Source of the DNA: an uncultured Alphaproteobacteria bacterium
GTDB taxonomy: Bacteria > Pseudomonadota > Alphaproteobacteria > HIMB59 > GCA-002718135
Length of the DNA: 59,962 bases
Assembly (NCBI GenBank): GCA_902591485.1
Contig: CACJAV010000008.1
Span: 1 to 59,962, forward strand
Reading direction: 5' to 3'
Shown here: piece by piece, positions 35,023 through 59,962 of the stretch
Layout of the letters: the number at the start of each line of letters is the position of its first letter
How positions within the stretch are numbered: position 1 is the stretch's first letter
Notes under the pieces: model-generated
The model's database searches: none
Told to the model about the DNA's origin: nothing
What the model saw: the letters and a program-made list of their open reading frames with translations, nothing else
Translations under genes and position numbers: made by a program

Positions 35023-35026
35023 TTGT

Positions 35027-38330: not shown

Positions 38331-38340
38331 TTTTTTATTT

Positions 38341-39030
38341 TTATACGTCATAGACACATCTAAAGCCTAAAGTTGATGCTCGGTTCATTCCCTCATTTAA
38401 TAATTGAAGTTTCCAATGATAATTATTTTTTCTTGCTCCTCCACCGACATGCCAATGATCTTGTGCATAAAAAAAACTTCCACCTCTTATTAGTGCAAAT
38501 TTATGTTCCCCATCATCATAAACCCCAGACGTCCATTCCCAAGCATTACCACTTAAATCTTCACACCCACACCAACTAGCTCCTTTTTTATGCGCATTTA
38601 CAGGTGTTAATGCACTATGATCATGATTACAAACTAAGGGATCAAATGTATCGCCCCAAGGCCATTCTAAATAGTTTGGGCCCGCAGCGATATATTGCCA
38701 TTCTTCATCAGTTGGAAGTCTCCCACCAACCCATTTAGCATAATGCATTGCATCATATTGGGATACGCAAACTACAGGATAATTATTTTTAATTTTATTT
38801 GGATTATGGGCTAAAAACCTTTGAGGATCTGCTGGTTTATAACCTGTGCTTTTTATAAAAAATAAGAATTGTTGATTAGTCACTGGATATTTATCTACGT
38901 ATAAATTTTTAATATTAACATTCTTTGGTCCATGATCTAACGAACAAGTCCCTTCTAAAGTTAGGTGTGCTACTCTGTAATTATATTCAGATGAATCTAT
39001 GAATATTTTATTATTTTGAATAGATTTCAT
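38341..39030 (-). CDS. SUMF1/FGE-fold domain protein lacking the catalytic cysteine pair
   Basis: A 229-residue protein with the sulfatase-modifying-factor fold: YPVTNQQFLFFIKSTGY, YDAMHYAKWVGGRLPTDEEW, LSGNAWEWTSG, RGGSFFYAQDHWH and LGFRCVYDV. Formylglycine-generating enzymes carry two copper-binding cysteines just after RGGS(F/W); here that stretch (182-200) has none. The cysteines are at 29, 88, 134, 154, 156 and 225. It is therefore unlikely to be a standard FGE and may be a substrate-binding or other enzyme of this fold. It sits between a sulfatase (10 bp) and the glycoside hydrolase in one operon. Confidence 0.8.
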   Translation of the reverse strand: MKSIQNNKIFIDSSEYNYRVAHLTLEGTCSLDHGPKNVNIKNLYVDKYPVTNQQFLFFIKSTGYKPADPQRFLAHNPNKIKNNYPVVCVSQYDAMHYAKWVGGRLPTDEEWQYIAAGPNYLEWPWGDTFDPLVCNHDHSALTPVNAHKKGASWCGCEDLSGNAWEWTSGVYDDGEHKFALIRGGSFFYAQDHWHVGGGARKNNYHWKLQLLNEGMNRASTLGFRCVYDV

Positions 39031-39040
39031 TTTTAAATAA

Positions 39041-40315
39041 TTATTTAAGATCTTTCAAAGTATCAATTAAAAAAGGTGATTTAATGTTATTATTTAACAA
39101 AGGATCTTTTGTGGATTTCATCCACTTAGCAATCTTTTTCAAAAGGTTTTGTCTTATTTTTTTATATTTCATATTTTGAGCTAAATTTTTTCTTTCAAAT
39201 TTATCTGTTTTTATATGATAAAGTTCATAGCGGTCTCTTACATTAATCATTTGTTTTAACATTGTTTTGTATGTAGGACCCATCATTACATCTCCTGGCA
39301 CTCTTATTATTTTATCTGAGTCAAAATTTATTATTAATTTATAATTTTTATCTCTTATACAACGTATTGGGTCAAATAAATCATGGTACGTTTTTTCTGC
39401 GAAAATGTGTTTATTTTGATTATATTTTTTATTCATGATCAAAGGGTAAAAACTTTTACCCTGAATAATTTTAGGTATTTTTATTTTTGCAAAATCCAAT
39501 AAGGTTGGTAGAATATCGATATTTGAAATTAATTCTTTGAATTTTTTATTTTTGATTTTAAGCTTAGGATAAGAAATAATTAAACTAGTTTCAATTCCAG
39601 CATCATACAGCGTACCTTTTGCTCTTGGAAAGGGTATTCCGTGATCTGTTGTGAATAATATTATTGTATTTTCATAAAGATTTTTTCTTTTTAAAATGTT
39701 AATAATTTTAGCAACCGAGTCATCCATTTTTTTTATTGCTCCCTGCATTGATGCAAACTCTTTTCTAGTATCATGATTATTTGGAATATATTTTGGAACA
39801 GATATGCCCTTAGATTTAAAAGGTTTAACTCCCCCAAAATCAAAAGGTCGATGAGGTTCAAAGAAATTTATTTCTGCATAAAAAGGTTTCTTAAATAAAT
39901 TACTATCAATATTTTCTTTTATATTTTTTACTACTGCATCTGCAGGTCTTTCTGGAAAAATTTTTTTGAAACCTAAGGTTTTCTCATTGTAAGTAACATG
40001 CTGTAATCCAAAGAGAATTGAACTATAATTATTTTTAAAAAAATGTTTTGCTATATGATTAACTTTTTTATCAAGGCTCCAACCAAAATGAGCATGAGCC
40101 AAACCCAAAACACCATTATTATGAGGATACATACCGGTTGCTATTGCAGCTCTGCTAGGACTGCACCCTGGACTTGTTGCATATGAATTTTCAAATAAAA
40201 TACCGTTTTTTGCAAGAGCATCAATTGCTTTTGTGCTAACTGACTTAACTCCATAACACCCAAGATGCTTACCAATATCATGACATATAATTTTAATAAT
40301 ATTTGGATGAGTCAA
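39041..40315 (-). CDS. Sulfatase (formylglycine-type), TTG start
   Basis: A 424-residue sulfatase. The start is TTG at 40315: an in-frame stop lies 3 codons upstream, and the next ATG comes after the active site. AAAGG about 10 bases upstream supports it. Metal site PNIIKIICHDIGKHLGCYG uses His-Asp where many sulfatases have Asp-Asp; the formylglycine motif is C-S-P-S-R (Cys51-Arg55) in SPGCSPSRAAIATG; the second metal motif is FTTDHGIPF. No signal peptide. It lies 6 bp after the sugar permease gene, tying it to that importer. Confidence 0.93.
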   Translation of the reverse strand: MTHPNIIKIICHDIGKHLGCYGVKSVSTKAIDALAKNGILFENSYATSPGCSPSRAAIATGMYPHNNGVLGLAHAHFGWSLDKKVNHIAKHFFKNNYSSILFGLQHVTYNEKTLGFKKIFPERPADAVVKNIKENIDSNLFKKPFYAEINFFEPHRPFDFGGVKPFKSKGISVPKYIPNNHDTRKEFASMQGAIKKMDDSVAKIINILKRKNLYENTIILFTTDHGIPFPRAKGTLYDAGIETSLIISYPKLKIKNKKFKELISNIDILPTLLDFAKIKIPKIIQGKSFYPLIMNKKYNQNKHIFAEKTYHDLFDPIRCIRDKNYKLIINFDSDKIIRVPGDVMMGPTYKTMLKQMINVRDRYELYHIKTDKFERKNLAQNMKYKKIRQNLLKKIAKWMKSTKDPLLNNNIKSPFLIDTLKDLK

Positions 40316-40321
40316 AAAAAA

Positions 40322-41158
40322 TTAACCTTTTACTGATCCAGCCGTTAAACCATTTATTACTCTTTCTTGAAAAAGAATAAATACAGTAATGCTAGGAAGA
40401 ATACTAATAACAACAGCTGCAAACATGCCTACATAATCTGAAAAGAATTGATTAGTAAAATAACTTATACCAAATTGAATTGTTCTTATATCTGTTGAAG
40501 ATGTTAAAAGCATTGCATAAATAAATTCATTCCAACACAAAATAAACTGAAAAGTTCCTGCCGTTGCTAAGCCTGGTAAAGCTAGAGGAAGCATAATTCT
40601 GAAATATCTTGCAGCAAAATTACATCCGTCTAAATATGAAGCTTCTTCAATTTCTTTAGGTATTGATTTAAAAAACTCTGTAAGAATAAATGTTGAAACA
40701 GGAAGCCCAACAGCGCAATAAACTAAAATAAGCCCGAATCTTGTGTCATACAAGTTTAAAAAATTTATAATTGCAAAATAAGGAATTATCAGTGCATTTA
40801 ATGGAACTAAGATACCTGCCGTAATCATTAAAAATAAAACGTTCTTACCCCAAAAAGTATGTCTAGCTATTGCAAATGCACACATTGAAGAAAACAATAT
40901 ATTTAAAAAAGTTGCACTGGTACTAATTACTAAAGAATTAATTATTAGCTTTCCTAGTCCTGCCTCACGAATAGCATTTGAATAATTTTGAAATTGAAAT
41001 ACTGCTGGTAATTTAAATGGGTCGTCAAGTAATTCTGCATTAGTTTTCAATGAGGCAAGCACCAACCATAGAAAAGGAAATACTGCATAAAAGACAAAAG
41101 ATATTATGATTACCCATTTAAAAATAAAATAAAAGTTTGAAGATAGATCTCTTTGCAT
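40322..41158 (-). CDS. Sugar ABC transporter permease (MalG-like)
   Basis: A 278-residue permease from the ATG at 41158; a GTG at 41176 would overlap the previous gene by 17 bp and is less likely. Six helices are expected; the EAA loop is EIEEASYLDGCNFAARYFRI and the typical PALPGLAT-like LPLALPGLATAGTFQF follows, with CWNEFIYAMLLTSS. It forms the channel with the MalF-like subunit for a mono- or oligosaccharide in the CUT1 family. Confidence 0.93.
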   Translation of the reverse strand: MQRDLSSNFYFIFKWVIIISFVFYAVFPFLWLVLASLKTNAELLDDPFKLPAVFQFQNYSNAIREAGLGKLIINSLVISTSATFLNILFSSMCAFAIARHTFWGKNVLFLMITAGILVPLNALIIPYFAIINFLNLYDTRFGLILVYCAVGLPVSTFILTEFFKSIPKEIEEASYLDGCNFAARYFRIMLPLALPGLATAGTFQFILCWNEFIYAMLLTSSTDIRTIQFGISYFTNQFFSDYVGMFAAVVISILPSITVFILFQERVINGLTAGSVKG

Positions 41159-41159
41159 T

Positions 41160-42032
41160 TTAGTTATAGGTTTCACTTTTTAATAATTTACGGAGTGATA
41201 ATAAAAGAATAGCACCAATTGCTATCATTATCACTCCTGCGGCATTACCTCGACCAAGTCTTTGTACTGATAATTCATTCCAGATATAAACAACAAGCAC
41301 TTGTGTTTTATTTGCAGGTCCTCCCGCAGTCATCAAATATACATATTCAAACTGTCTTAAGTTAAATATGACAGCTAAAATTATACATAGAAAAAAAGTA
41401 CTTTTAATTAACGGTGCAGTAATATGTAGATCTTTTTGAAATTGACTAGCTCCATCTATATTAGCTGCATCGTAATAATCCTCTGAAATGCCAGCAGTTT
41501 TTGCAAGCATAATAACCATAAAATATCCAACATAACACAAAGAGAAACCAATTAAGGCTGCGTTAGCTGTTCTTACATTACCAAGCCAGTTGTGATTTTT
41601 ATAATCAGAAAAACCAATGTAGTCTAACAAGAAATTAACTAAACCATATTCTGCATTGAACATAGCAGCCCATAACATAGCTATCGCAGCTGATGAGACA
41701 ACCTGAGGAATAAAAAGAACTGTTCTAAATACTTTCCATCCTCTAGATCTATGAGCCAAAAGTAATGCAATTATTAGTGCTAAAGGGACAGTAATTAAAG
41801 CAGCAGTAAGGCACCAATATAGATTATTAGTAATTGCTCTTACAAATGATTTTTTATTAAATAATTTAGTGTAATTTTCTAGACCAACAAACTCTGCACT
41901 AATTCCATCCCAGTTAGTAAAACTTGTAACAAAAAGAAAAAGAATAGGTATGATAAAAAATAGAAAAAAAAGAATAATTGCTGGGGCTATAAATAATAGA
42001 AGCCACACAACTTCATCTTTTTTTATTTGCAT
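41160..42032 (-). CDS. Sugar ABC transporter permease (MalF-like)
   Basis: A 290-residue CUT1-type permease, with an N-terminal helix at about 10-35, NWDGISAEFVGLENYTKLF, and the EAA loop in EDYYDAANIDGASQFQKDLH. LRQFEYVYLMTAGGPANKT is the conserved region with the GGP motif. It lies after the binding-protein gene with a 49-bp gap that contains a perfect hairpin. No ATPase gene is present in this operon, so a shared MsmX/UgpC-type ATPase elsewhere must energise it. Confidence 0.93.
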   Translation of the reverse strand: MQIKKDEVVWLLLFIAPAIILFFLFFIIPILFLFVTSFTNWDGISAEFVGLENYTKLFNKKSFVRAITNNLYWCLTAALITVPLALIIALLLAHRSRGWKVFRTVLFIPQVVSSAAIAMLWAAMFNAEYGLVNFLLDYIGFSDYKNHNWLGNVRTANAALIGFSLCYVGYFMVIMLAKTAGISEDYYDAANIDGASQFQKDLHITAPLIKSTFFLCIILAVIFNLRQFEYVYLMTAGGPANKTQVLVVYIWNELSVQRLGRGNAAGVIMIAIGAILLLSLRKLLKSETYN

Positions 42033-42042
42033 AAATAGATAA

Positions 42043-42071
42043 AACTATGAGGTAATTAATACCTCATAGTT
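42043..42071 (-). terminator. Intercistronic hairpin after binding-protein gene (copy 2)
   Basis: Perfect inverted repeat AACTATGAGGTA / TACCTCATAGTT, 12-bp stem with a 5-nt loop (42055-42059), 10 bases past the SBP stop. On the minus strand TTTATCTATT follows, a weak T-rich tail. Compare 14667-14693 and 56165-56193. Confidence 0.75.
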
Positions 42072-42081
42072 ATTTAGATTA

Positions 42082-43338
42082 TTATTCGGCGTCTTTTAGC
42101 ATTTCAACAGCGCCCTCTGGTGTAACTTCACCTAAAGCTAAAGCTGATAATGCTTGTGGAAATTCACTTACAATTGGTAAAGAACCCATTCCGTTCATGA
42201 ATGTTTTAGCTACATAAGGAGCATTTCCTTTTTGCTCATTCATTTCAATGAATAGTCTGTCCATATCGCTAGGTAAATCAGCCTTTACAATAAACATTGC
42301 GCCAGAACTATAAGATAGTCTTGCAACATTTTCTGGAGTTGTTAACCATTTTAAGAATTTTACAACTGCTTCTTCTTTTGCTGGATCAGATTGCTTACCA
42401 GCAGCTAAAGAAGATTGCTTTCCACCAACATAGCCACCAGGAGCACCTTCTCCACCTGTTAGCATTGGAGCTGGAGCTACACCTATATTTTCATGCAAGC
42501 CAGGTATACCATCAGAAGTATAACGAGCTATGAACCAAGGTCCATTCATGAAAACTGCAGTTCTTTCATTTAAGAAATGTCCACCAGAAACACCCGCATC
42601 TGCACCAATTGCATCACTTGTAGTGTATTGATACATTTTTTCCATAACTTCAAAAGCTTTTACAAAAGCAGGATCATCAAGTCCTCTTTCATAAACATTT
42701 GGTCCGCCTGCTGAAGCTAGTGCTTGAGAAAACCAAAGCATTGAGGTCCAAGCATTTTTAGCTGTCATTTGAGATGTGCATACCTTGCCAGTTGCAGTTA
42801 CAGCTTCGCACATTTTGAAGAATTCATCATACGTAGCAGGAAACTCATCATAACCAGCAGCTTTTAATAATTTTTTATTATAAGTAACTGGTGTCACAAA
42901 AAGTTCATATGGCAGATTAGTTAATTGACCGCCCATCATATTACTTTCAAGAGTTCCTTCTGGATAAACATTATTCCAATGTGAGTCAGAAGCTACATGA
43001 GGAGCAAGATCCATTGCCTTGCCACTTCTGTGCAAAATATCCAGTAAGTCTGCACCAACTGTAAATATATCTGGCAAATCACCAGTAGATATCTGAGCAG
43101 TTAATTTTTGTGCATAAATATCGTAATCAGTTTGTTCCTCTATTACAACTTTTATAGAACCTGCGTTTGCAGCATTGAATTCATTTACAAGTTCACCAAT
43201 AACTGTTGTCTTAGAGTCTTTTCCAACCCAAATTGATGGCCAGTTAATTGTAATTTCTGCAGAAGCTACTGTTGAAATTACAGTTAGTGAAGTAGAAATG
43301 AAAACTACTGAAAATAATTTTAATATTGATTTAATCAT
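42082..43338 (-). CDS. Sugar ABC transporter substrate-binding protein (SBP family 1)
   Basis: A 418-residue periplasmic protein with a signal peptide (MIKSILKLFSVVFISTSLTV, cleavage after ASA). Typical of CUT1 binding proteins are VIGELVNEFNAANAGSIKV, LTAQISTGDLPDIFTVGADL, AVFMNGPWFIARY and GAPGGYVGGKQSSLAAGKQS. It delivers sugar to the two downstream permeases. GGAGG at 43343-43347 is a strong ribosome binding site, and the downstream hairpin should keep its level above that of the permeases. The linked sulfatase, SUMF1-like and glycoside hydrolase genes suggest a sulfated oligosaccharide. Confidence 0.95.
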   Translation of the reverse strand: MIKSILKLFSVVFISTSLTVISTVASAEITINWPSIWVGKDSKTTVIGELVNEFNAANAGSIKVVIEEQTDYDIYAQKLTAQISTGDLPDIFTVGADLLDILHRSGKAMDLAPHVASDSHWNNVYPEGTLESNMMGGQLTNLPYELFVTPVTYNKKLLKAAGYDEFPATYDEFFKMCEAVTATGKVCTSQMTAKNAWTSMLWFSQALASAGGPNVYERGLDDPAFVKAFEVMEKMYQYTTSDAIGADAGVSGGHFLNERTAVFMNGPWFIARYTSDGIPGLHENIGVAPAPMLTGGEGAPGGYVGGKQSSLAAGKQSDPAKEEAVVKFLKWLTTPENVARLSYSSGAMFIVKADLPSDMDRLFIEMNEQKGNAPYVAKTFMNGMGSLPIVSEFPQALSALALGEVTPEGAVEMLKDAE

Positions 43339-43579
43339 TAGTCCTCCAATTTTCTTAAAGGTTTAAAACATACTTATACTTTATACAAGAGTAAAAAGTG
43401 TTAGAAATTTTATAAAATTAAACAAAATTGATTGAATATTTTGTTTAAAAAAAAAATAAAAAATCAGTAAATTAAAAAAAAAATAAATTCTTGAGTTATC
43501 AATACAATAAAGTATTTAAATGATGGAAATCAGCCAAATAAATTATTAATTTTAAGAAAATTTGAGGTAAAAACAAAGT
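43339..43579. promoter_or_regulatory. Divergent promoter region between sugar importer operon and aldolase-isomerase operon
   Basis: The 241-bp gap is the largest in the accessory region and is extremely AT-rich. It must drive the importer-sulfatase operon leftward and the aldolase operon rightward. GGAGG (43343-43347, minus) and GAGGT (43563-43567, plus) are the ribosome binding sites of the two first genes. I see A-tracts but no clear operator palindrome. Confidence 0.5.
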
Positions 43580-44599
43580 ATGAAATATAGCAATATTGGA
43601 AAATTTGTACACATTAAAAAATTATGTAACGATCAAGGTCATTTACAAATGCTTGCAATCGATCAAAGACCACCGATATTTAGTTTGATAAAAGAGAAAA
43701 AAAAGAGATATATCTACAAGGATGTTGTAGATTTTAAAAAAAATATTTCACTAAGCCTATCTAAGCATTCCACTGCTATACTAATGGATCCGGTTTATTC
43801 AGTGCCTAATTTAATTCCTTCAAGTAGAAGTAAAGGTTTAATAGTTACTCTTGAAGATCATGATTTTATTGAAAAAGGTAAAGGTAGATATTCAAAAAAT
43901 ATTAAAAATTGGTCAGTTGAAAAGATAAAAAGAATGGGTGGTGATGCTGTCAAAGTACTAGCTTGGTATCGACCTGATGCTGATGAAAAATCAATTGAAC
44001 ATCAAAAAAAATATATAGCAACAATAGGTAAGGAATGTCAAAAATATGATATTCCATTTTTACTAGAACTATTGGTTTATCCATTTAAAAATGAAATTGG
44101 ATATTCAAAAGATTATAAAGAGCAACTATATAAAAATCACAATCATGTAATAGATAGTGTGAAAGAATTTTCTAAAGCAAAATACAAAGTTGATATTTTT
44201 AAATTAGAAAGTCCTGTTGATAGTAGCCAATTACAAAATAGTAAATTCACTAAAGCTACAGAAGATGCTTTCAAAGAATTGTCTAAGGTAACAAGAAATA
44301 TTCCGTGGGTAATGCTTTCCTCTGGGATGAGTAAGAATTCTTTTTTTAATTGCTTAAAATTAGCTTATAAAAATGGTGCCTCGGGGTATCTTGCTGGCAG
44401 AACTATTTGGCTAGATGCTTTTACAGATTATCCAAATTATAAAAAAATAATAACAAAGCTTAATAAAGAAAGTCTAAGTTATGTTAAAAAATTAAATGAA
44501 CTTACGAAAAAAAACGCTCTCTCTTTAGAAAAATATCTAACAGAAAAACTAATTCAAAAAAACGCTGCAAATTTTAAAACTATTTATAAAGGCTTTTGA
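43580..44599 (+). CDS. LacD/YihT-type class I aldolase (candidate sulfofructose-phosphate aldolase)
   Basis: A 339-residue TIM-barrel aldolase of the DeoC/LacD family. QMLAIDQRPPIFSL (23-36) is the family's N-terminal AxDQR motif. GGDAVKVLAWYRPDAD holds one conserved Lys (125), and VDIFKLESPVD holds Lys208 at the Schiff-base position of LacD and YihT. WVMLSSGMSKNSFF and ASGYLAGRTIW follow; the Arg in AGRTIW matches the phosphate/sulfonate-binding region. Known substrates are tagatose-1,6-bisphosphate and 6-deoxy-6-sulfofructose-1-phosphate. The nearby YihV-like kinase and ComDE-like genes favour the latter by context only. Confidence 0.8.
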   Translation: MKYSNIGKFVHIKKLCNDQGHLQMLAIDQRPPIFSLIKEKKKRYIYKDVVDFKKNISLSLSKHSTAILMDPVYSVPNLIPSSRSKGLIVTLEDHDFIEKGKGRYSKNIKNWSVEKIKRMGGDAVKVLAWYRPDADEKSIEHQKKYIATIGKECQKYDIPFLLELLVYPFKNEIGYSKDYKEQLYKNHNHVIDSVKEFSKAKYKVDIFKLESPVDSSQLQNSKFTKATEDAFKELSKVTRNIPWVMLSSGMSKNSFFNCLKLAYKNGASGYLAGRTIWLDAFTDYPNYKKIITKLNKESLSYVKKLNELTKKNALSLEKYLTEKLIQKNAANFKTIYKGF

Positions 44600-45975
44600 T
44601 GATTGGGTGCTTTAGTTTAGCAAGAGAAACTTTTGATATTAAATTTGCCAAGAAGAAATTAGCAACAGCAAAAAGAATAATAAAAAAATTAAATAAAAAT
44701 ATAAATTTTTTTGATGAGTTAATAACTAATGATGAAATTGGAAAAAGCGCTTTAAAACACTTTGAAAATAGTAAATGTACAAAGTTTATAGTTATTCAAT
44801 CAACTTTTACTGATGCAAAATTTATTTCTTCCTTTGTTAAAAAATTTAAAAAACCTGTATTATTTATTTCATTTAAAGAAAAAAGGTCAGGTGGACGCTT
44901 AAGACTGAATTCACTTTGTGGAGTAAATTTAGGATTACATGCATTAATTAAAAGTAAATTTTATTCTAATTTTATAATTTTCACAGCTGAAGAGCGATCT
45001 ATTTCAAATGAAATATTAAAATTTATAAAAAATAAGAATAATTTTACTAAAAAAAACTATTTGAGAAAAATAAATTCAAAAAAAATTAATAAAAAAATTA
45101 TCGAATTTAAAAAACCAAACTTAGGTTTGATTGGTGAAAGACCAGAAGGTTTTGATACTTGTGATTTTAATAATGAAGATTTAAAATCCAAGTTTAATGC
45201 CAAAATAAAAAGAATAAAACTACAAAATTTATTTAATATTTCAAGCAAGGTTGATAAAAAAATAATTAATGAGACAAAGAAAAATATAAGTAAAAACCTT
45301 AAATATATAAATCAAGTAAATCAAAAAGAACTGAATAAAAGTATATCTCTATTCCATGGTCTTAAAAATATTCAACAAAAACAAAATATTGATGCATTTG
45401 CAGTTCGTTGTTGGCCTGAAATGTTCACAGAGTATGGTTGCGCGTCGTGCGGTCCAATGGCTATGATGAATGAAAATAAAATAAGCTCTGCCTGTGAAGC
45501 TGATGTACTTGGGAGCTTAACCTGCAACATTTTAAATCAATTAAATAACAAACCGGCTTTGTTAGTGGATATTGTTGATGTCGATGAGAGAGATAATACC
45601 ACTGTTTTTTGGCATTGTGGTCTAGCCCCTATAAGTATGGCAGAGAAAAATGCACCAAGTGCCACAGTTCACTCAAATAGAAGGAAGCCTCTCCTGCATA
45701 ACTTTGCCTTTAAGTCAGGTGATATTACAATTTTTCGTATTTCAAAATCAGAAAATAAATTAAAATTTATCGTAATGAATGGAACAGTTCTTAAAAGAAA
45801 AAATTCTTTTTCTGGAACTTCAGGCGTAATCAGTTTAGGTAAAAATACACATAAAAAAATAAAAAATTTATTTTTAAGCGGTTTAGAACATCATGTGGGT
45901 TTTACTTATGGAAATGTGCTTGAAGATATTAAAAGCTTAGGAAAGCAGTTAAGAATACCAACATATACAATATGA
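44599..45975 (+). CDS. L-fucose/L-arabinose isomerase-fold protein (FucI-like, COG2407 type)
   Basis: A 458-residue protein. I start it at the ATG at 44599 rather than the in-frame TTG at 44596; the ATG overlaps the aldolase stop (TGATG). The N-terminal half is lysine-rich and divergent. The C-terminal half has the isomerase metal site: RCWPEMFTEYGCASCGPMA, ISSACEADVLGSL and the FWHCGLAP histidine. Proteins of this fold interconvert aldoses and ketoses such as fucose/fuculose. In this operon it would supply a ketose for the PfkB kinase and aldolase; no YihS-type (AGE-fold) isomerase is present, so it is the candidate for that step. The substrate is inferred. Confidence 0.8.
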   Translation: MIGCFSLARETFDIKFAKKKLATAKRIIKKLNKNINFFDELITNDEIGKSALKHFENSKCTKFIVIQSTFTDAKFISSFVKKFKKPVLFISFKEKRSGGRLRLNSLCGVNLGLHALIKSKFYSNFIIFTAEERSISNEILKFIKNKNNFTKKNYLRKINSKKINKKIIEFKKPNLGLIGERPEGFDTCDFNNEDLKSKFNAKIKRIKLQNLFNISSKVDKKIINETKKNISKNLKYINQVNQKELNKSISLFHGLKNIQQKQNIDAFAVRCWPEMFTEYGCASCGPMAMMNENKISSACEADVLGSLTCNILNQLNNKPALLVDIVDVDERDNTTVFWHCGLAPISMAEKNAPSATVHSNRRKPLLHNFAFKSGDITIFRISKSENKLKFIVMNGTVLKRKNSFSGTSGVISLGKNTHKKIKNLFLSGLEHHVGFTYGNVLEDIKSLGKQLRIPTYTI

Positions 45976-47060
45976 GTGAAACTATAAAATATGGAATAAT
46001 TGGAACTGGCGTAATGGGCCAAGAACATATTCAAAATATAAATCTAATTGAAAATGCAGAAGTAGTAGCAATTTATGATACAAACGAAGACTCTAGAAAC
46101 CAGGCTAAATTATTAGTCAAAGATTCAACAAAATTTTATAATAGTTTAAATGAATTAATAAATACAAATATTGCAGATGTTTATATTATTGCTACACCCA
46201 ATTACACCCACATAAATGTATTAGAACAAATTTTAATAACAAATAAACATTTGTTAATAGAAAAACCGTTATGCACAACGACTGAGGATTGTAAAAAATT
46301 TGAGGTACTTGCTAAAAGCTATTCAAAGATAATTTGGACTGCAATGGAATACAGATACATGCCTCCTGTAAAACAATTAATTAATGAGGTTCATAACAAT
46401 GCAATTGGTAAAGTAAAAATGCTCTCAATCCGTGAACATCGATTTCCCTTTTTGCAAAAAGTTGATGATTGGAATAGATTTGCTATTAACACAGGAGGCA
46501 CATTAGTTGAAAAGTGTTGCCATTTCTTTGACTTGATGAGACTCATTGTTCAAAGTGAACCAATAAAAGTTTATGCGAGTGGTAATCAAGATGTTAATCA
46601 TCTAGATGAAAAATATAATGGCAAAACTCCAGATATTATAGACAATGCATATGTAATTGTTAATTTTGCTAACGGTGTACGAGCAATGCTTGATTTATGC
46701 ATGTTTGCAGAAAATTCAGAATACCAAGAAGAAATAGTAGCTGTTGGTGACCTAGGAAAAATTGAAGCATTTGTTCCATCTAGTGCCTCAGGTAGAGACT
46801 CTTCAGAAGTTAGAATTGGTATGAGAAAAGATAATGTTACTAAATCAACAGAAGTAAAAGTTGATAAGGAAATTTTATTAGCAGGTCATCATCATGGTTC
46901 AACTTATTATGAACATTTAGCATTTATAAATGCTATTCAAAAAAATGAAAAACCTGAAGTATCTTTAAGGGATGGATTAATGTCAGTTGCTATTGGTGAA
47001 GCAGCTGAAAACTCAATTAAAGAAAACAGAGTTGTATTTATGAAAGAGTTTAATCTATAA
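45972..47060 (+). CDS. Gfo/Idh/MocA family oxidoreductase
   Basis: A 362-residue protein. The N-terminal Rossmann motif is YGIIGTGVMGQEHIQNI; then the conserved EKP of LLIEKPLCTT and the C-terminal domain with REHRFPFLQKVDDWN and NTGGTLVEKCCHFFDLM, where the second His-containing helix contacts the substrate. These NAD(P)-dependent enzymes oxidise sugars or polyols, and some family relatives (GH109, GH188) use NAD+ to cleave glycosides, including sulfoquinovosides. Either fits here. The start overlaps the isomerase stop (ATGA), and the end overlaps the convergent dehydrogenase gene by 6 bp. Confidence 0.88.
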   Translation: MSETIKYGIIGTGVMGQEHIQNINLIENAEVVAIYDTNEDSRNQAKLLVKDSTKFYNSLNELINTNIADVYIIATPNYTHINVLEQILITNKHLLIEKPLCTTTEDCKKFEVLAKSYSKIIWTAMEYRYMPPVKQLINEVHNNAIGKVKMLSIREHRFPFLQKVDDWNRFAINTGGTLVEKCCHFFDLMRLIVQSEPIKVYASGNQDVNHLDEKYNGKTPDIIDNAYVIVNFANGVRAMLDLCMFAENSEYQEEIVAVGDLGKIEAFVPSSASGRDSSEVRIGMRKDNVTKSTEVKVDKEILLAGHHHGSTYYEHLAFINAIQKNEKPEVSLRDGLMSVAIGEAAENSIKENRVVFMKEFNL

Positions 47061-47978
47061 ATTGAAAAATTCTTTTACGGCATTAGCTATAAATTCACTT
47101 ACTCTTTTGTTAGACTCTTCAGTCACTCCTGCAACATGAGGTGTGAGTATGCAATTTGTATTTTTTTTTATTTTTTCTAAAAAAGATTTAGGTACAGGTT
47201 CTGTATTATAAACATCAAGAGCAAATCCAGATATTAGTTTTTCTTCATAAGCTCGTATTAAATCTTCTTCATTAACAATAGAACCTCGAGAAGAATTAAT
47301 GATAATGGGTTGTTTTAACATTTTCTCAAAAGCTGCATAATTTAATATATTTTTTGTATTTTTGGTAAGAGGTAAATGAACTGAAATTACATCTGACAAT
47401 TTAAAAACCTCATTTAAATCAAGTAATTTTGCATTAAATTGATTACCAACACTTGAGTCAAGATATGGATCGTACGCAATTATTTTTGTATCAAAAACTT
47501 TAGCTAGTGTAGAGACTTTTTTTGCAATTAATCCAAAACCAAGCAAACCAATTGTTTTACCTCTAAGTTCTCTTGAACTAATTGAAGTTCGAGGCCAATT
47601 TCCATTCAAAGTTTCTTGGTGCATTAAAGGAATATTTTTTAACAAGGTAAGAGCTGTATTAAAAACATATTCAGCAACGGAGTCAGCATTCATACCTGTA
47701 GCCGGTTGCACATGAATATTATGATTTTTACAATACTCGGTATCTATATTATCAAGACCGACGCCTAAGCGTCCAACAAATTTTAGATTATTCGCCTTAT
47801 CAAGAACTTCTTTATTAACTTGTGTTTTATTTCTTACAATTAAAGCATCAAAACTATTAATTATTTTTTTTAATTCACCATTATTAGTTGAGAGATCATG
47901 GTTTATCGTAACATCAAAATTAGTTTTTAGTAGCTCAACATATTCGACATCCATAAATTCAGTTATCAAAATTTTCAT
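47055..47978 (-). CDS. D-isomer-specific 2-hydroxyacid dehydrogenase, candidate sulfolactate dehydrogenase (SlcC-like)
   Basis: A 307-residue SerA-fold dehydrogenase. NAD-binding GLLGFGLIAKKV (144-155); catalytic Arg231 in NSSRGSIVNEEDL, Glu260 in DVYNTEPVP and His281 in LTPHVAGVTEES. It lacks the regulatory ACT domain of full SerA. The known (S)-sulfolactate dehydrogenase SlcC has this size and fold and makes sulfopyruvate, the substrate of ComDE, whose genes lie two positions upstream. Glyoxylate or phosphoglycerate dehydrogenase activity remains possible. It is the last gene of the minus-strand run comD-comE-pfkB-slcC-like, 4 bp after the kinase. Confidence 0.75.
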   Translation of the reverse strand: MKILITEFMDVEYVELLKTNFDVTINHDLSTNNGELKKIINSFDALIVRNKTQVNKEVLDKANNLKFVGRLGVGLDNIDTEYCKNHNIHVQPATGMNADSVAEYVFNTALTLLKNIPLMHQETLNGNWPRTSISSRELRGKTIGLLGFGLIAKKVSTLAKVFDTKIIAYDPYLDSSVGNQFNAKLLDLNEVFKLSDVISVHLPLTKNTKNILNYAAFEKMLKQPIIINSSRGSIVNEEDLIRAYEEKLISGFALDVYNTEPVPKSFLEKIKKNTNCILTPHVAGVTEESNKRVSEFIANAVKEFFNL

Positions 47979-47982
47979 AAAA

Positions 47983-48888
47983 CTATATTTCCTTTAATTG
48001 TATTTTTTTTACAAATTTTTTAACAGATGAAAGATTAGGTAATGAATAAATTCCACCATTTTTAGTGCATTTTAAGGAAGCTGTGGCTGTGGCAAGCTTC
48101 ATAGTATTTTGTAAAGAGTACTTTTGATGAATAAAAGCTGCAAAAGCCCCATGAAATACATCACCTGCACAGTTTGTTTCAACAACTTTAATTTTAGGAG
48201 GTTTGCAATTATAAATTAAACCATTTTCAATCCAATACACACCTCTTTCACCAGCCGTTATTGCATAAAATTTATTTTTTATTGAATACATTTTCTTTAA
48301 TGACCCAACAATTGATTTAATTTTTGTATATTCAAATGCACCTGTCTCAGAAAAGATAAGATGGGAAGATAAATGAATTATTTGTTTAATTTTTTTGTTT
48401 AATTTATAATTATCAAGATCGACAATATGATTTAGATTATTTTTATTACAATTTTTGGCAATATAGAGGGTTGCTTCAACCCATCTCAGATCAGACATGA
48501 TTGTCGTATTTTTTTTAAATACAATTTTAGGTAATTTTTTATTATTTAATAATTTTTTTTCACTAAAAGCAGCAAGAAGTCTTTCACCTTGCTTATCTTC
48601 GTAAACAAAACTTTGTGATGATTTAACTCCTTTAATTTCAACAATGTTATTATGTTTAATTTTAAATTTTTTTAATTCACTTTTTAAAAATTTTGAGGCA
48701 TCATCATTTCCAAGTCTTCCAATAAATGAAGTATTTATTCCAAGTTTTTTAATGGTAAAACTAGCAACAGCTGCAGAACCTCCGAGTCTTTTTTCTATTC
48801 CCTGGGCAAGAACTTTTACTGGTTTATTGGGGAAAGTATCAATCTTAACAATATGATCTAAAAAAACTGATCCAACACAAATAATCAT
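47983..48888 (-). CDS. PfkB family sugar kinase, YihV-like (candidate sulfofructose kinase)
   Basis: A 301-residue ribokinase-fold protein. The catalytic base is Asp243 in CAGDVFHGAFAA. Several stretches match my recollection of E. coli YihV: KSSQSFVYEDKQGERLL, MSDLRW, LIFSETGAFE and LKCTKNGG. Lys25 and Arg135 align with YihV Lys27 and Arg138, reported sulfonate-binding residues, whereas Asn109 is replaced by Ala107. It would phosphorylate C1 of a ketose ahead of the LacD/YihT-type aldolase. Alternatives are other PfkB ketose kinases, such as those for deoxyketogluconate. It lies between comE-like and slcC-like genes. Confidence 0.8.
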   Translation of the reverse strand: MIICVGSVFLDHIVKIDTFPNKPVKVLAQGIEKRLGGSAAVASFTIKKLGINTSFIGRLGNDDASKFLKSELKKFKIKHNNIVEIKGVKSSQSFVYEDKQGERLLAAFSEKKLLNNKKLPKIVFKKNTTIMSDLRWVEATLYIAKNCNKNNLNHIVDLDNYKLNKKIKQIIHLSSHLIFSETGAFEYTKIKSIVGSLKKMYSIKNKFYAITAGERGVYWIENGLIYNCKPPKIKVVETNCAGDVFHGAFAAFIHQKYSLQNTMKLATATASLKCTKNGGIYSLPNLSSVKKFVKKIQLKEI

Positions 48889-48909: not shown

Positions 48910-49479
48910 TTATAGGTAAGAAACTAAACCTAATGCTTTTCTAAATCGATCCCTAATAGTAACAGCATTGAGTGGTATTGGCTTTATAGGCACATTACCT
49001 GACTGTATTTTAGAAATAATGACATATGAATTATCTTTATCAGCTAATGCCTTCTTTAAGTTTCCCTCTGTTTCTTGCCCAGAGCACTCTATGACATTTT
49101 TACATCCAGCTCCAATAGCAACATCTTTTAATGATGTTCCTTCATTAGTAAAAGTTTTTTGATCTCCAGTAGAACCATAAGAGCCATTATCAACTATTAA
49201 AAGAGTATAATTTGAAGGTGCTCTATTTCCAATAGTTGCAAGTGTGTTCATATTCATTAAAACTGAACCGTCACCGTCAATACTAATAACATTTTTATCA
49301 ACTGTTAAGGATAGGCCTAAACCAATTGATGACGCTAAACCCATACTACCCAACATATAAAAATAATTTGGGCGGTCGTTAATTTTATATAATTCTTGTG
49401 AAGGAAGACCAATGTTACATATAACTAATTCATCATGAATCGTATCTTTCAAAAGATTTAATAATTCAAATCTATTCAT
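48910..49479 (-). CDS. comE: ThDP-dependent decarboxylase PP-domain subunit, ComE-like (sulfopyruvate decarboxylase beta)
   Basis: A 189-residue protein equal to the C-terminal half of a ThDP enzyme. The ThDP/Mg motif starts at GDG (69-71) and ends at N98-G99, with LLIVDNGSYGSTGDQKTF. YGSTG at this place is typical of sulfopyruvate decarboxylase beta subunits, whereas phosphonopyruvate decarboxylases usually read HDSTGGQ. Size matches archaeal ComE (188). With ComD it would convert sulfopyruvate to sulfoacetaldehyde and CO2. It begins 2 bp after the comD-like gene. Confidence 0.75.
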   Translation of the reverse strand: MNRFELLNLLKDTIHDELVICNIGLPSQELYKINDRPNYFYMLGSMGLASSIGLGLSLTVDKNVISIDGDGSVLMNMNTLATIGNRAPSNYTLLIVDNGSYGSTGDQKTFTNEGTSLKDVAIGAGCKNVIECSGQETEGNLKKALADKDNSYVIISKIQSGNVPIKPIPLNAVTIRDRFRKALGLVSYL

Positions 49480-49481
49480 CT

Positions 49482-49979
49482 TTAATCATCCTTCATTAAA
49501 TTAAAATTACATAGTACAGCGACAGGACTTTCAATAACTTTTGCATGATTAGTAAAAGTAGAAATTTTATCAAGATCATGTTCAGTATTACAGTGAAGCA
49601 TAGGTATGCGAAGGGTATTAAGTATATCTTCGGTAACACTTGCCATTCCACCCTGAGCTCCAACTGGCTCTCCAGGAGTGCCTCGATAACTTATTAAGAA
49701 AACAACTGGCATTTGGTATAGTTGTAAAAGAGAAACAATAGAATTTACGGAATTACCAATTCCAGTGTTTTGCATCATAATACATGGAAGTTTATTTCCT
49801 AAATACGCACCAGCACAAATACCCATTCCTTCTTCTTCTCTTGGAATAGCTGAGTAATAAATATCTTTATCATTCTCTAAAATAGTGATCATATTTGCTA
49901 GAAGTTTACATGGTACACTTAAGAAAAAATCTGCTCCACCTTCTTTTAAATTATTAATAATTTTTTGGCTTATTTTCAT
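49482..49979 (-). CDS. comD: ThDP-dependent decarboxylase PYR-domain subunit, ComD-like (sulfopyruvate decarboxylase alpha)
   Basis: A 165-residue protein equal to the N-terminal half of a ThDP enzyme (archaeal ComD is about 169). SVPCKLLANMI is the family start, the cofactor-activating glutamate lies in IPREEEGMGICAGAYLG (Glu48-50), and MMQNTGIGNSVNSIVSLL is typical of sulfopyruvate/phosphonopyruvate decarboxylases. The split gene pair is characteristic of ComDE rather than the single-chain phosphonopyruvate enzyme. It follows galM after 49 bp on the same strand. Confidence 0.75.
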   Translation of the reverse strand: MKISQKIINNLKEGGADFFLSVPCKLLANMITILENDKDIYYSAIPREEEGMGICAGAYLGNKLPCIMMQNTGIGNSVNSIVSLLQLYQMPVVFLISYRGTPGEPVGAQGGMASVTEDILNTLRIPMLHCNTEHDLDKISTFTNHAKVIESPVAVLCNFNLMKDD

Positions 49980-50028: not shown

Positions 50029-51078
50029 TTAAAAATCGTTACGTAATTTAATTTTTATCTTTGATAAATAATTTTTATTTTTTCTTAATATTGGAGATGG
50101 AAAATTAGATTGATTAATTGCATTTGGATAGTTTTGTGGCTCTAAACACATTCCATATTGTATCCCGTATGTTTTATTTTGCTTACCGGTATAATTGTCC
50201 AACATCATATTACCCGTATAAAATTGAATTCCTTTTTGATTAGTAAAATACTCAACTCCCATTTTGGTTTTTTTGCTATAAATTTTTGCAACTGGGACCA
50301 CCATCGATTGATCATCCAAAGCATAATTATGATCAATTCCTCCAGAGTTAAGAAATTCTTTATCTATTATGAAAGGTTTTCTTAAATCAAATTTAGTACC
50401 TGATACTTTTAAAAGATTACCAGTTGGAATAGACTCCAGATCGGTTTCGCATATCTTATCAGAGATTATTTGAACAACATGATCCAAATTATTTTGGTAA
50501 TAATCTTGGTGTCCATGAAAATTCCAGTAGTTATGATTGGTTAGATTGACTATTGTTTCTTGATCTGTTGTTGCATGAAACTCAATAGAAAGTTCATTGT
50601 GATTATTTAATTCATAAATTGCTTTGCAATCAAGATTTCCTGGATAGTTTTCTTCCATATCAGGTGAAAAATAGCTTAAAACACATTTAGTTGAGTCTTT
50701 ATTTTCTTCTATTTTGTCAATTTTCCAAATTTTTTTATTAAAACCAGTTTTACCACCGTGCAAATGATTTGGAGGAGTGTTTGGAAATAGTTTAAAATTT
50801 TTATCATTTAATGAAAACTGAGCACCCCCTATTCTATTAGCAACTCTTCCCACTATAGAATTAAAATACCCATGCGAATTTAGAACTCCATCAACATCTC
50901 CATAACCCAGAAGAACATCTTCTTTGGAATCTTCCCTATTTAAGTATGGAATCTTTACTTCGTGAATATATCCTCCATAATTATAAAATGTAAAACTAAA
51001 ATTATTATCATTAATTACTTCGACTGACTCGATGGGAAGTGCAGCAGGATTTTCTATTTTGTTTTGATTAATTTTCAT
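50029..51078 (-). CDS. Aldose 1-epimerase (mutarotase)
   Basis: A 349-residue galactose-mutarotase-fold protein. FYNYGGYIHEVKIPY, the NSIVGRVANRIGGAQF Asn/Arg substrate pocket, NHLHGGKTGFNKKIW, NLTNHNYWNFHG with the catalytic His and CLEPQNYPNAINQ with the catalytic Glu are all present. It equilibrates the anomers of an imported aldose; in sulfoglycolysis the analogous protein is YihR, but sequence alone does not give the sugar. The start overlaps the EamA stop by 4 bp (ATGA), linking it to the transport operon upstream. Confidence 0.92.
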   Translation of the reverse strand: MKINQNKIENPAALPIESVEVINDNNFSFTFYNYGGYIHEVKIPYLNREDSKEDVLLGYGDVDGVLNSHGYFNSIVGRVANRIGGAQFSLNDKNFKLFPNTPPNHLHGGKTGFNKKIWKIDKIEENKDSTKCVLSYFSPDMEENYPGNLDCKAIYELNNHNELSIEFHATTDQETIVNLTNHNYWNFHGHQDYYQNNLDHVVQIISDKICETDLESIPTGNLLKVSGTKFDLRKPFIIDKEFLNSGGIDHNYALDDQSMVVPVAKIYSKKTKMGVEYFTNQKGIQFYTGNMMLDNYTGKQNKTYGIQYGMCLEPQNYPNAINQSNFPSPILRKNKNYLSKIKIKLRNDF

Positions 51079-51977
51079 GATGCTTTTCTGTCTCTTGTTT
51101 TTATAGAATTTTTTTGACGTAGATAGATGATTATTCCTCCTGCAACAATAAATAAAGCACCAGGAAACAATTGATCAACTGGCCATTCTCTAAAGAATAT
51201 CCATCCCAAAATTAATGCAAAAAATATTTCGATATAATCAAATGGCATGATTTTACTTAACTCTGCTTTTCTTGCACCATATATAAGAAGTAAAGTTCCA
51301 GTACCGCCTGCTAAACCCATAAGAAAGAATATAAATAAATCATTTATACTTCTAAAATTTTCCCACATACCAAACGATAATACTAAAATTAATGATACGC
51401 TGATTGTGCCAATTTGACCATAGATGTTAATTAGTGGTGTTGGAACGTCCATTGTGAAGCTTAAAGACGTTACTCTTGCAAGAGAATAACCCAAAGCTGC
51501 GATAACTGGCAATAATATCATATAATTAAAATCAGATGACCAAGGTTCCATAATGAGAACAATACCAATAAAACCAGATATAACCGCTGATGTTTTAAAC
51601 CATCCAAATTTTTCTCCCAGAATAGGCAAACTTAAAAGTGTGACCATCATAGGTCCTGTGTATTCCATGGTAGCTACAAGAGCAAAAGGCAAATACAAAT
51701 AAGAAGTATACAAACAAAGCTGGGCCAGAGCTACAAAGGCTCCTCGAAGGAAGCCTAATCTCCATTGTTTAATTTTAATTTTTCTTCCATTTTGATGCCA
51801 ATCTGTTGAAAAGTAGAGTGCTATAAAACAGGGTATCATTCCGAAAAGATTTCTAAATACAGACAATTGTGCTGCAGGGTAATCATTTCTTAAAAACTTA
51901 ATGGCAATACCCATGCAGTCCATTAAGAATAGTCCTGAAAGAGACAAAACTACTGCTAGTAATAAATTATGTTTCAA
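51075..51977 (-). CDS. EamA/DMT family transporter (copy 2)
   Basis: A 300-residue ten-helix protein with two EamA repeats. It starts LLLAVVLSLSGLFLMDCMGI, with an FRNLFGMIPCF loop, and the second repeat has YSLARVTSLSFTMDVPTP. It lies between the ATPase gene (4 bp upstream) and galM (4-bp overlap). In this setting it may export a product of the catabolic pathway, such as a C2 or C3 sulfonate, but that is inference. It has little resemblance to the EamA copy at 23 kb beyond the fold. Confidence 0.9.
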   Translation of the reverse strand: MKHNLLLAVVLSLSGLFLMDCMGIAIKFLRNDYPAAQLSVFRNLFGMIPCFIALYFSTDWHQNGRKIKIKQWRLGFLRGAFVALAQLCLYTSYLYLPFALVATMEYTGPMMVTLLSLPILGEKFGWFKTSAVISGFIGIVLIMEPWSSDFNYMILLPVIAALGYSLARVTSLSFTMDVPTPLINIYGQIGTISVSLILVLSFGMWENFRSINDLFIFFLMGLAGGTGTLLLIYGARKAELSKIMPFDYIEIFFALILGWIFFREWPVDQLFPGALFIVAGGIIIYLRQKNSIKTRDRKAS

Positions 51978-58266: not shown

Positions 58267-58423
58267 ATTATTTTCTCCTTAATTAAGAATAAACGTCTAC
58301 TTTTTTGTATACAATTTTTATTCATTAGCAAAAATATATATTGGATTTATTTCATTTTTTTTACATAAATTGTGTATTTTTTTAATTGAAAATACCATAT
58401 CTTGTGTTTTGTTAATAAATAAT
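58267..58423. promoter_or_regulatory. Divergent promoter region, large SBP operon / phosphonate ester hydrolase
   Basis: The 157-bp gap lies between divergent starts. AGGAG (58275-58279, minus) serves the SBP gene. The rest is AT-rich, with runs such as TTTTTTTACA, and no operator that I can define. Confidence 0.45.
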
Positions 58424-59962
58424 ATGAGTAATATAAAAAAATCCGTTTTGTTTATTTGTGCCGATCAATGGAGATGGGATTGTTTTGGTTTTATGAAACA
58501 CAAACATGCACTGACACCAAATCTAGATAAACTTGCTAAAAATAGTACAGTATTTAAATCTCATTTTACTGGAATTGTTCCTTGTGGGCCTGCAAGAGCA
58601 ACGATGCTTACAGGGCTGTACCCTTTTATTCATCGATCGGTAAGAAACGGTGCACCTCTAGATAAACGATTTACAAATATTGCTAAAGAAGTTCGACGTG
58701 AAGGATATGACCCAAAACTTTTTGGGTATACCGATACAACTTGGGATCCAAGATTTTTAGATGATATTGATGAAAAAAAATTTACTTATGAATCTCCAAT
58801 GGAAGGATTTGATCCAGTGTGTCATCTACCCGAGGGCAATCCCGTGCTGTGGGCAAATTTTTTAAAAGAAAATAATTATGAAATTAATCACCCTCATGAT
58901 TTGTATGTACGCGATACTCCTAAAAAAGGTGAAGGCTATATTTTTAAACCTTGGGATATTCCTACAGAACATTCAGATACAACTTTTCTTACAAATGAAG
59001 TTATTAAACATTTAGAGAGTACTAAGGAGCCGTTCTTTTATCATATCTCATATTTAAGACCCCACCCTCCTATGTTTGTTTCAGAGCCATGGCACAGTCT
59101 CATCGATCCAAATCAAATCGAATTACCTTTAGAAAGTAGTTCATATGAAGAAATGCTTGATGGTCATCCGTTTCTAAAGGAAATGGCCAGAAAATTTCTT
59201 AATGAAGACCTGTATAAGGAAATACGTTTCAAAGATTTAAATGATCAGGATAAAAAAAATCTAATAGCGGTCTATCTTGGAATGTGTGCTGAAGTAGATC
59301 ACAATATTGGTAGGATTTTAACCTGTTTAGAAAATAATAACCGATTGGATGATACCTTAATTATTTTTACAAGTGATCACGGTGAATTATTAGGTGAAAA
59401 TAAATTATGGGGTAAACTTGGATGGTGGGATTCATCCTACAGAATACCTCTAATTATATCAAATCCAAATGGATCAAAATTTGAAATAGAAGATTTTAGT
59501 GAGTCAGTTGATTTAGCACCAACCATTCTTGAGTATTTAAATATTGATGTGCCTATAAATTGGAGTGGTGAGTCATTGCTAGAATATACCGTTAACGGTT
59601 CACGCGATTCTATAAAACCTCATGTTATTTTTGAATTTGATTTTAGTGAAAAACATTATTCTAATTTTGTCAATGAGTCTATTTTAAGTCCTGAGGAATG
59701 TAATTTAATCTGCATAAGAAATGATAAATGGAAATATGTTCATTTTCCAAACTTACCCTCTTTATTGTTCGATTTAGATAATGATCCTATGGAGATGAAC
59801 AATTTGGCCGAAGACAAAAATTTTATAGATATTAAAATGAAACTTTTGAGTGATTTAATGAGTCACAGATTAAGGCATCAAGATAGGCAACTATCTAGTT
59901 TACAAATTTCAAAAGACGGCGTCGCAAGAGTTCATGGATCGAATTCAAGAAAAGTGATATAA
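58424..59962 (+). CDS. Phosphonate monoester hydrolase/sulfatase-family phosphohydrolase
   Basis: A 512-residue protein from the ATG at 58424 (an upstream frame from 58370 adds 18 residues that do not fit the family). The stop is the last base of the window. It matches the Rhizobium phosphonate monoester hydrolase in length (514) and motifs as I recall them: VLFICADQWRWDCFGF with metal Asp, formylglycine site VPCGPARATMLTG (Cys54-Arg58), SYLRPHPP, IIFTSDHGELLGE and KYVHFPNLPSLLFDL. This family hydrolyses phosphonate and phosphate mono- and diesters, and sulfate esters, promiscuously. It is divergent from the large ABC operon, which may import its substrate. Confidence 0.9.
   Translation: MSNIKKSVLFICADQWRWDCFGFMKHKHALTPNLDKLAKNSTVFKSHFTGIVPCGPARATMLTGLYPFIHRSVRNGAPLDKRFTNIAKEVRREGYDPKLFGYTDTTWDPRFLDDIDEKKFTYESPMEGFDPVCHLPEGNPVLWANFLKENNYEINHPHDLYVRDTPKKGEGYIFKPWDIPTEHSDTTFLTNEVIKHLESTKEPFFYHISYLRPHPPMFVSEPWHSLIDPNQIELPLESSSYEEMLDGHPFLKEMARKFLNEDLYKEIRFKDLNDQDKKNLIAVYLGMCAEVDHNIGRILTCLENNNRLDDTLIIFTSDHGELLGENKLWGKLGWWDSSYRIPLIISNPNGSKFEIEDFSESVDLAPTILEYLNIDVPINWSGESLLEYTVNGSRDSIKPHVIFEFDFSEKHYSNFVNESILSPEECNLICIRNDKWKYVHFPNLPSLLFDLDNDPMEMNNLAEDKNFIDIKMKLLSDLMSHRLRHQDRQLSSLQISKDGVARVHGSNSRKVI

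Follow-up and report, generated by a model that had tools for sequence, protein, structure and literature searches.

A two-subunit sulfopyruvate decarboxylase predicted within a sulfoquinovose operon of an AEGEAN-169 alphaproteobacterium

An uncultured alphaproteobacterium carries the gene pair comDE in a cluster that, judged by its gene content, is a sulfoquinovose (SQ) operon. As the whole best explanation we consider it probable that ComDE is a sulfopyruvate decarboxylase serving SQ catabolism, fed by the (S)-sulfolactate dehydrogenase SlcC and followed by Xsc. On balance, we also favor a broader picture for this streamlined open-ocean organism, namely, a tandem sulfo-EMP/SlcC-ComDE-Xsc route in which a swappable SQ island lies beside a resident sulfopyruvate decarboxylase. 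The SQ context was overlooked in the first-pass annotation of the window, by which we mean the whole 59,962-nucleotide stretch of contig CACJAV010000008.1. Via named relatives, the window was assigned to the genus of the single-cell genome (SAG) AG-337-I02, which belongs to the order HIMB59, the AEGEAN-169 clade (PMC8692485).

The first-pass annotation described two adjacent genes of 165 and 189 codons, 2 bp apart, as the PYR and PP halves of one ThDP enzyme. Both open reading frames were confirmed on the minus strand, and Pfam matched both halves, with TPP_enzyme_C for the PP half (ComE; 4e-18) and a match just below the cut-off for the PYR half (ComD). The reported motif, GDG-(26)-N with YGSTG, was also recovered: ComE contains G69-D70-G71, 26 residues, N98, and then Y101-G-S-T-G105. 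With the NCBIfam models, ComD scored above the cut-off of sulfopyru_alph (147.95 bits; E-value, 6.9e-46; Table 1), and ComE reached 217.1 bits on sulfopy_beta TIGR03846 (E-value, 1.6e-64), 4 bits short of the cut-off of 221.5. On the same beta model, a RefSeq-named Leisingera ComE scored 243 bits, a Priestia split pair 172 bits, and a Sinorhizobium split pair 140 bits. The beta-model cut-off was passed by ComE of 49 genomes in the same order, many of them genus-mates. Furthermore, ComE was detected in approximately 80 genomes of the same genus (E-values, 2e-62 to 2e-68), and the ComD/ComE pairing was inspected directly at 19 loci. Since the profile matches are strong and ComE is kept in so many genomes of the genus, we regard the matches, the motif, and the pairing as not due to chance.

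Table 1. Predicted genes of the comDE operon and of the neighboring SQ cluster in the window
Feature	Position	Strand	Evidence
comD, sulfopyruvate decarboxylase alpha (PYR) subunit, 165 aa (predicted)	49482..49979	-	TIGR03845, 156.1 bits
comE, sulfopyruvate decarboxylase beta (PP, ThDP-binding) subunit, 189 aa (predicted)	48910..49479	-	TIGR03846, motif, tree
Putative PfkB-family sulfofructose kinase (YihV-like)	47983..48888	-	21 bp downstream of comE; PDB 7ag6
slcC, putative (S)-sulfolactate dehydrogenase, D-2-hydroxyacid dehydrogenase family	47055..47978	-	Homologue clusters, tree
sqgA, putative NAD-dependent sulfoquinovosidase, GH188 type	45972..47060	+	PDB 8qc2, seven active-site residues
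Putative sulfoquinovose isomerase, SftI/SqvD type (L-fucose isomerase superfamily)	44596..45975	+	NF048012
Class I LacD-type aldolase, candidate sulfofructose-1-phosphate aldolase	43580..44599	+	NF009498, PDB
Aldose 1-epimerase, candidate SQ mutarotase	50029..51078	-	Pfam Aldose_epim, 6e-71; 49 bp upstream of comD
EamA-family transporter	51075..51977	-	Pfam EamA, 5e-21; 4-bp overlap with epimerase gene
Sugar-type ABC transporter, substrate-binding protein and two permeases	40322..43338	-	NCBIfam matches of binding protein

The minus-strand operon has the order EamA transporter, aldose epimerase, comD, comE, PfkB kinase, and D-2-hydroxyacid dehydrogenase (slcC). From the epimerase gene onward, the gaps are 49, 2, 21, and 4 bp. 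Convergent to it are the genes for the aldolase, the isomerase, and SqgA, in which successive genes overlap by 4 bp each. By homology, the complete sulfo-EMP trio of SQ isomerase, sulfofructose (SF) kinase, and sulfofructose-1-phosphate (SFP) aldolase is present, the isomerase scoring under its equivalog cut-off (298 bits on the SftI model; E-value, 1e-88; cut-off, 700). The kinase, which also scores under its NCBIfam equivalog cut-off, has as its top PDB match the Escherichia coli sulfofructose kinase YihV (7ag6; E-value, 3e-41). In the alignment with YihV, K27 and R138 are identical and N109 is replaced by Ala; we take these three positions to be the sulfonate-binding residues of YihV. The aldolase matched NF009498 (318 bits) and PDB 8tnf (3e-77), and more weakly the YihT-type SFP aldolases 7ag7/7ne2 (2e-17). 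The Gfo/Idh protein SqgA matched PDB 8qc2 with an E-value of 2.6e-109 and has, at the published spacing, all seven ArSqgA residues, of which R166, L170, and K172 bind the sulfonate and K107, Y136, E189, and H193 are catalytic (PMC10755693).

The EamA transporter gene is kept next to comDE across the genus. In many relatives, a distant ABC set takes the place of the sugar-type ABC transporter, a candidate importer of an SQ glycoside or a sulfated sugar. Around the SQ genes, three sulfatases and a formylglycine-generating-enzyme-like protein are encoded (positions 35027 to 36535, 38341 to 39030, 39041 to 40315, and 58370 to 59962), which suggests that the region also handles sulfate esters. Between a sulfatase gene and the gene resembling that for the formylglycine-generating enzyme lies a minus-strand gene (36525 to 38357) for a 610-aa protein that has no Pfam or NCBIfam match. 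It has relatives at 61 to 66% in two other loci (L057 and L094) and, by eye, the look of a TIM-barrel glycoside hydrolase.

The last gene of the operon encodes a protein with a general likeness to phosphoglycerate dehydrogenase. Its nearest relatives outside the clade (40 to 44% identity) were found in Paracoccus and Methylobacterium clusters containing UxaA, UxaA, a transporter, the SlcC relative, and Ldh, together with a sulfate or sulfite exporter; we read these clusters as probable suyAB-slcC-comC. In P. versutus, the SlcC relative is encoded beside Ldh and near HisD/SDR/ADH genes, with no UxaA genes in the stretch examined. According to a review, Paracoccus suyAB neighborhoods contain SlcC and ComC (PMC9594981). 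In a dehydrogenase tree, the window SlcC formed one group (100/99) with the Paracoccus/Methylobacterium proteins and with a SAR202 protein whose gene adjoins comDE; SerA and the paralogs in the window genome fell outside this group. The product of sulfoglycolysis is (S)-sulfolactate (PMC11382572), and this is the form oxidized by SlcC (PMC11131964), so the enzymes would fit end to end. The stereochemistry in the window organism is likewise inferred.

The first-pass annotation left open whether the decarboxylation product is exported as isethionate or cleaved by Xsc. Xsc is encoded in the genome, on another contig than comDE (943.8 bits; cut-off, 676.4), and cleavage is now the likely answer; since Xsc is present, isethionate export as the sole fate is less likely. 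In several relatives, Xsc and comDE are on one contig, some 15 to 50 kb apart. Strong Xsc matches were obtained throughout the family of the window organism, but not in the sister family. Next to Xsc, genes for a GMC oxidoreductase and for a TRAP transporter are located (locus L061, G000:C5, 10012 to 16741), a set that possibly serves isethionate uptake and oxidation. SuyAB, which would provide a different fate, was provisionally absent from the 83% complete genome, its lone SuyB-family match being a fused 498-aa altronate-dehydratase-like protein. As a ComC candidate, we noted an Ldh_2 gene adjoining a glycine-betaine-type transporter gene (L182, G000:C2, 4275 to 5279); its top model was L-sulfolactate dehydrogenase, where it remained far under the cut-off (178 of 500 bits).

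Taken together, the genes suggest the following route, in which every substrate and the flux through the whole chain are predicted from sequence. SqgA would release SQ from an SQ glycoside, and the aldose epimerase would provide the right SQ anomer. The SftI-type isomerase would convert SQ to sulfofructose, the YihV-type kinase would phosphorylate this to sulfofructose 1-phosphate, and the LacD-type aldolase would cleave the latter to dihydroxyacetone phosphate and (S)-sulfolactaldehyde. The formation of (S)-sulfolactate would fall to an aldehyde dehydrogenase encoded outside the cluster, SlcC would oxidize (S)-sulfolactate to sulfopyruvate, and ComDE would catalyze the penultimate step, from sulfopyruvate to sulfoacetaldehyde and CO2. 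Finally, Xsc would produce acetyl phosphate and sulfite. The oxidation of sulfolactaldehyde is the sole step without a linked gene, no sulfolactaldehyde dehydrogenase (SlaB) being found in the gene cluster. The genome contains about a dozen aldehyde dehydrogenases, and the one that is GabD-like is our candidate for this step.

We compared the gene arrangement at 63 family loci. At 50 of them, the gene directly after comE is that for the kinase, and at one (L090, another genus) it is that for the dehydrogenase; the remaining 12 have neither. At these 12 loci, an agmatinase gene is located within a few kilobases of comE; in the window, the agmatinase gene (32086 to 33024) is approximately 15 kb away, beyond the SQ genes. 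Because these relatives hold comE near the agmatinase gene without the intervening genes, we interpret the SQ and sulfatase genes (34192 to 48888) as a variable island whose site is fixed, and comDE, the epimerase, EamA, and Opp transporter genes as residents of a site conserved in the genus. The idea that comDE arrived with the island was rejected, since comDE occupies the same site in the 12 island-free relatives, whose retention of the pair also indicates that comDE does not depend on SQ. The island-free genomes tested contained only SlcC paralogs (at most 41% identity), which suggests that SlcC travels with the SQ genes. Several island-bearing relatives have no LacD-type aldolase here, and in them an aldolase would need to be encoded elsewhere. 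In another genus of the family (L045, G103), comDE, slcC, and sqgA were accompanied by genes for a GH31 enzyme and for a class I fructose-bisphosphate aldolase; a kinase or SQ isomerase was not recognized nearby, and the locus possibly represents a different SQ route.

That ComDE acts on sulfopyruvate, as the first-pass annotation had proposed, is the best-supported identity for this predicted heteromeric ThDP-dependent enzyme. The main alternative for the sequence family is a two-subunit phosphonopyruvate decarboxylase of phosphonate biosynthesis. A split form of that enzyme exists if the name of the closest PDB sequence is followed (9iz3, putative phosphonopyruvate decarboxylase beta subunit; E-value, 5.5e-25), and the Priestia split pair is encoded in the same region as a PEP mutase-family gene. 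AepY and ComDE indeed belong to a common ThDP superfamily with PYR/PP architecture, but AepY is fused, adjoins aepX, and has H[ED]S[TV]G where the split ComDE of the window has YGSTG. On the phosphonopyruvate decarboxylase model (cut-off, 312.5), ComD and ComE scored only 96.7 and 122.9 bits. The first-pass annotation had suggested a phylogeny, which we computed from joined subunits of bacterial ComDE and AepY, with archaeal ComDE left out. The window pair grouped with pairs from Roseobacter hps operons, SAR202, and gammaproteobacterial metagenome-assembled genomes (96/96) and was split from AepY with 100/99. A PEP mutase, which together with a phosphonopyruvate decarboxylase grouping had been named as evidence to the contrary, gave no match in the 1.43-Mb genome, an absence that is provisional at 83% completeness, and no phosphonate gene lies near comDE. 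In a sister-family genome of the same order, a fused 365-aa phosphonopyruvate decarboxylase gene adjoins a PEP mutase-like gene, named by reading its sequence, in a phosphonate biosynthesis-like cluster that also includes an Fe-alcohol dehydrogenase-like gene (L060, G111:C39, 8016 to 11428). Based on the PEP mutase search, the profile scores, the motif, and the tree, we rejected the phosphonopyruvate identity, the probability of which we regard as close to negligible. Given the catabolic context of the operon, we judge a role in coenzyme M synthesis to be unlikely. It is also very improbable that the substrate is a non-sulfonated 2-oxo acid of ordinary sugar catabolism, such as hydroxypyruvate supplied by the linked D-2-hydroxyacid dehydrogenase. 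The family of this dehydrogenase is common to glycerate and phosphoglycerate enzymes, sulfatases and sugar transporters are encoded close by, and more distant split ThDP pairs adjoin aldehyde dehydrogenases. However, the dehydrogenase clusters with SlcC-type genes and not with SerA, the neighbors are specific for sulfosugars (SqgA retains the sulfonate clamp, and the kinase is closest to YihV), and ComE exceeds the Sinorhizobium split pair by far on the sulfopyruvate model.

Given sulfopyruvate as the substrate, its source has to be considered. ComDE probably also serves sources other than SQ, for example, sulfolactate derived from DHPS, or cysteate, because its site is conserved in members without SQ genes. 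Many genomes of the order carry an HpsN-like gene, located on the Xsc contig or near it, which likewise suggests that DHPS-derived sulfolactate may be used. In a stricter form, DHPS/sulfolactate or cysteate use would be the real job of ComDE (HpsN to sulfolactate, sulfopyruvate, ComDE, and Xsc), and the SQ island would merely share the site. This form would explain the 12 island-free loci and the HpsN-like gene on the Xsc contig, and it has a precedent in Roseobacter comDE, which lies within an hps operon (PMC11382572). We nevertheless consider it unlikely. Where the island is present, the genes for SF kinase and SlcC come after comE within one tight operon. Moreover, slcC moves together with the SQ genes, and these require ComDE if sulfolactate is to be used further. 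In addition, SlcC acts on the SQ-derived (S) enantiomer, whereas HpsN makes the (R) form. The two roles are mutually compatible, and we retain SQ catabolism as the probable function of ComDE in the island-bearing window organism.

The gene pair alone is ordinary, since Roseobacter genomes already have annotated split ComDE. The earlier remark that the enzyme is known from a few sulfonate degraders understated how widespread it is: in one survey, 66 bacteria with HpsN also had Xsc and ComDE, and the ComDE-Xsc branch is established in DHPS-using Alphaproteobacteria (PMC11382572). Roseobacter hps (DHPS) operons, such as those of Ruegeria sp. ANG-S4 and Leisingera, also have split ComD/ComE (54 to 57% identity in ComE) and the same sequence from sulfolactate through sulfopyruvate and sulfoacetaldehyde to Xsc (PMC11382572). 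There, the neighbors of comDE are HpsN-HpsO-HpsP and a dehydrogenase of the FMN type (SlcD), whereas in the window they are the sulfofructose kinase, SlcC, and SqgA. SlcD was rejected as the sulfolactate-oxidizing enzyme of the window organism, in the genome of which no full-length FMN-type homologue was found. The window shares isomerase, kinase, aldolase, mutarotase, and sulfoquinovosidase with the sulfo-EMP and sulfo-EMP2 pathways, for which hybrid gene sets have been described (PMC12890257, PMC9594981). The known sulfo-EMP forms excrete DHPS or sulfolactate (PMC12890257); the window operon differs in also encoding enzymes predicted to oxidize sulfolactate further and to decarboxylate the product. 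Paracoccus wurundjeri, with its tandem sulfofucolytic-sulfolactate sulfolyase pathway (PMC12421959), resembles the window in combining sulfosugar cleavage and sulfolactate breakdown in one organism, with release of sulfite. Its route is of the Entner-Doudoroff type, starts from sulfofucose, and uses sulfolactate sulfolyase, in contrast to the EMP-type SQ route with SlcC, ComDE, and Xsc predicted here.

Thus, each enzyme of the route was already known, and the combination appears to be the new part. In the open-access papers on SQ and on AEGEAN-169/HIMB59 that we consulted, we found no description of the sulfo-EMP and SlcC-ComDE-Xsc tandem and none of SQ use by AEGEAN-169. SQ is a sulfur-bearing sugar of photosynthetic membranes, of which approximately 10 billion tons are produced a year, and according to published descriptions, SQ degraders that cleave C-C bonds leave DHPS or sulfolactate to others. 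In the South Pacific Gyre, AEGEAN169 accounted for as many as 6% of cells (PMC11366302). If the proposed route is correct, nearly all of SQ would be used in one cell, giving dihydroxyacetone phosphate, acetyl phosphate, CO2, and sulfite, and the hand-off of DHPS or sulfolactate would be removed in an abundant clade of the oligotrophic ocean. The route also points to specific genes for tests in SAGs, in metatranscriptomes, and in vitro.

Three further observations concern related gene sets. Split ThDP pairs located beside aldehyde dehydrogenase genes (L171, 3426 to 4573; L172, 3447 to 4570) were distinct from both ComDE and AepY in the tree. A SAR202 metagenome-assembled genome of the Chloroflexota (L129, 390 to 9285) combines ComDE with an SlcC-like gene and with genes for a TRAP transporter; the Xsc route has been reported solely from Alphaproteobacteria in PMC11382572. 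On the Zymomonas mobilis plasmid pZZM402 (L190, 128 to 4636), genes for a class II aldolase, an aldose epimerase, an SQ-isomerase-like protein (34% identity), and a Gfo/Idh oxidoreductase are arranged consecutively, and this row looks like a plasmid-borne SQ cluster.
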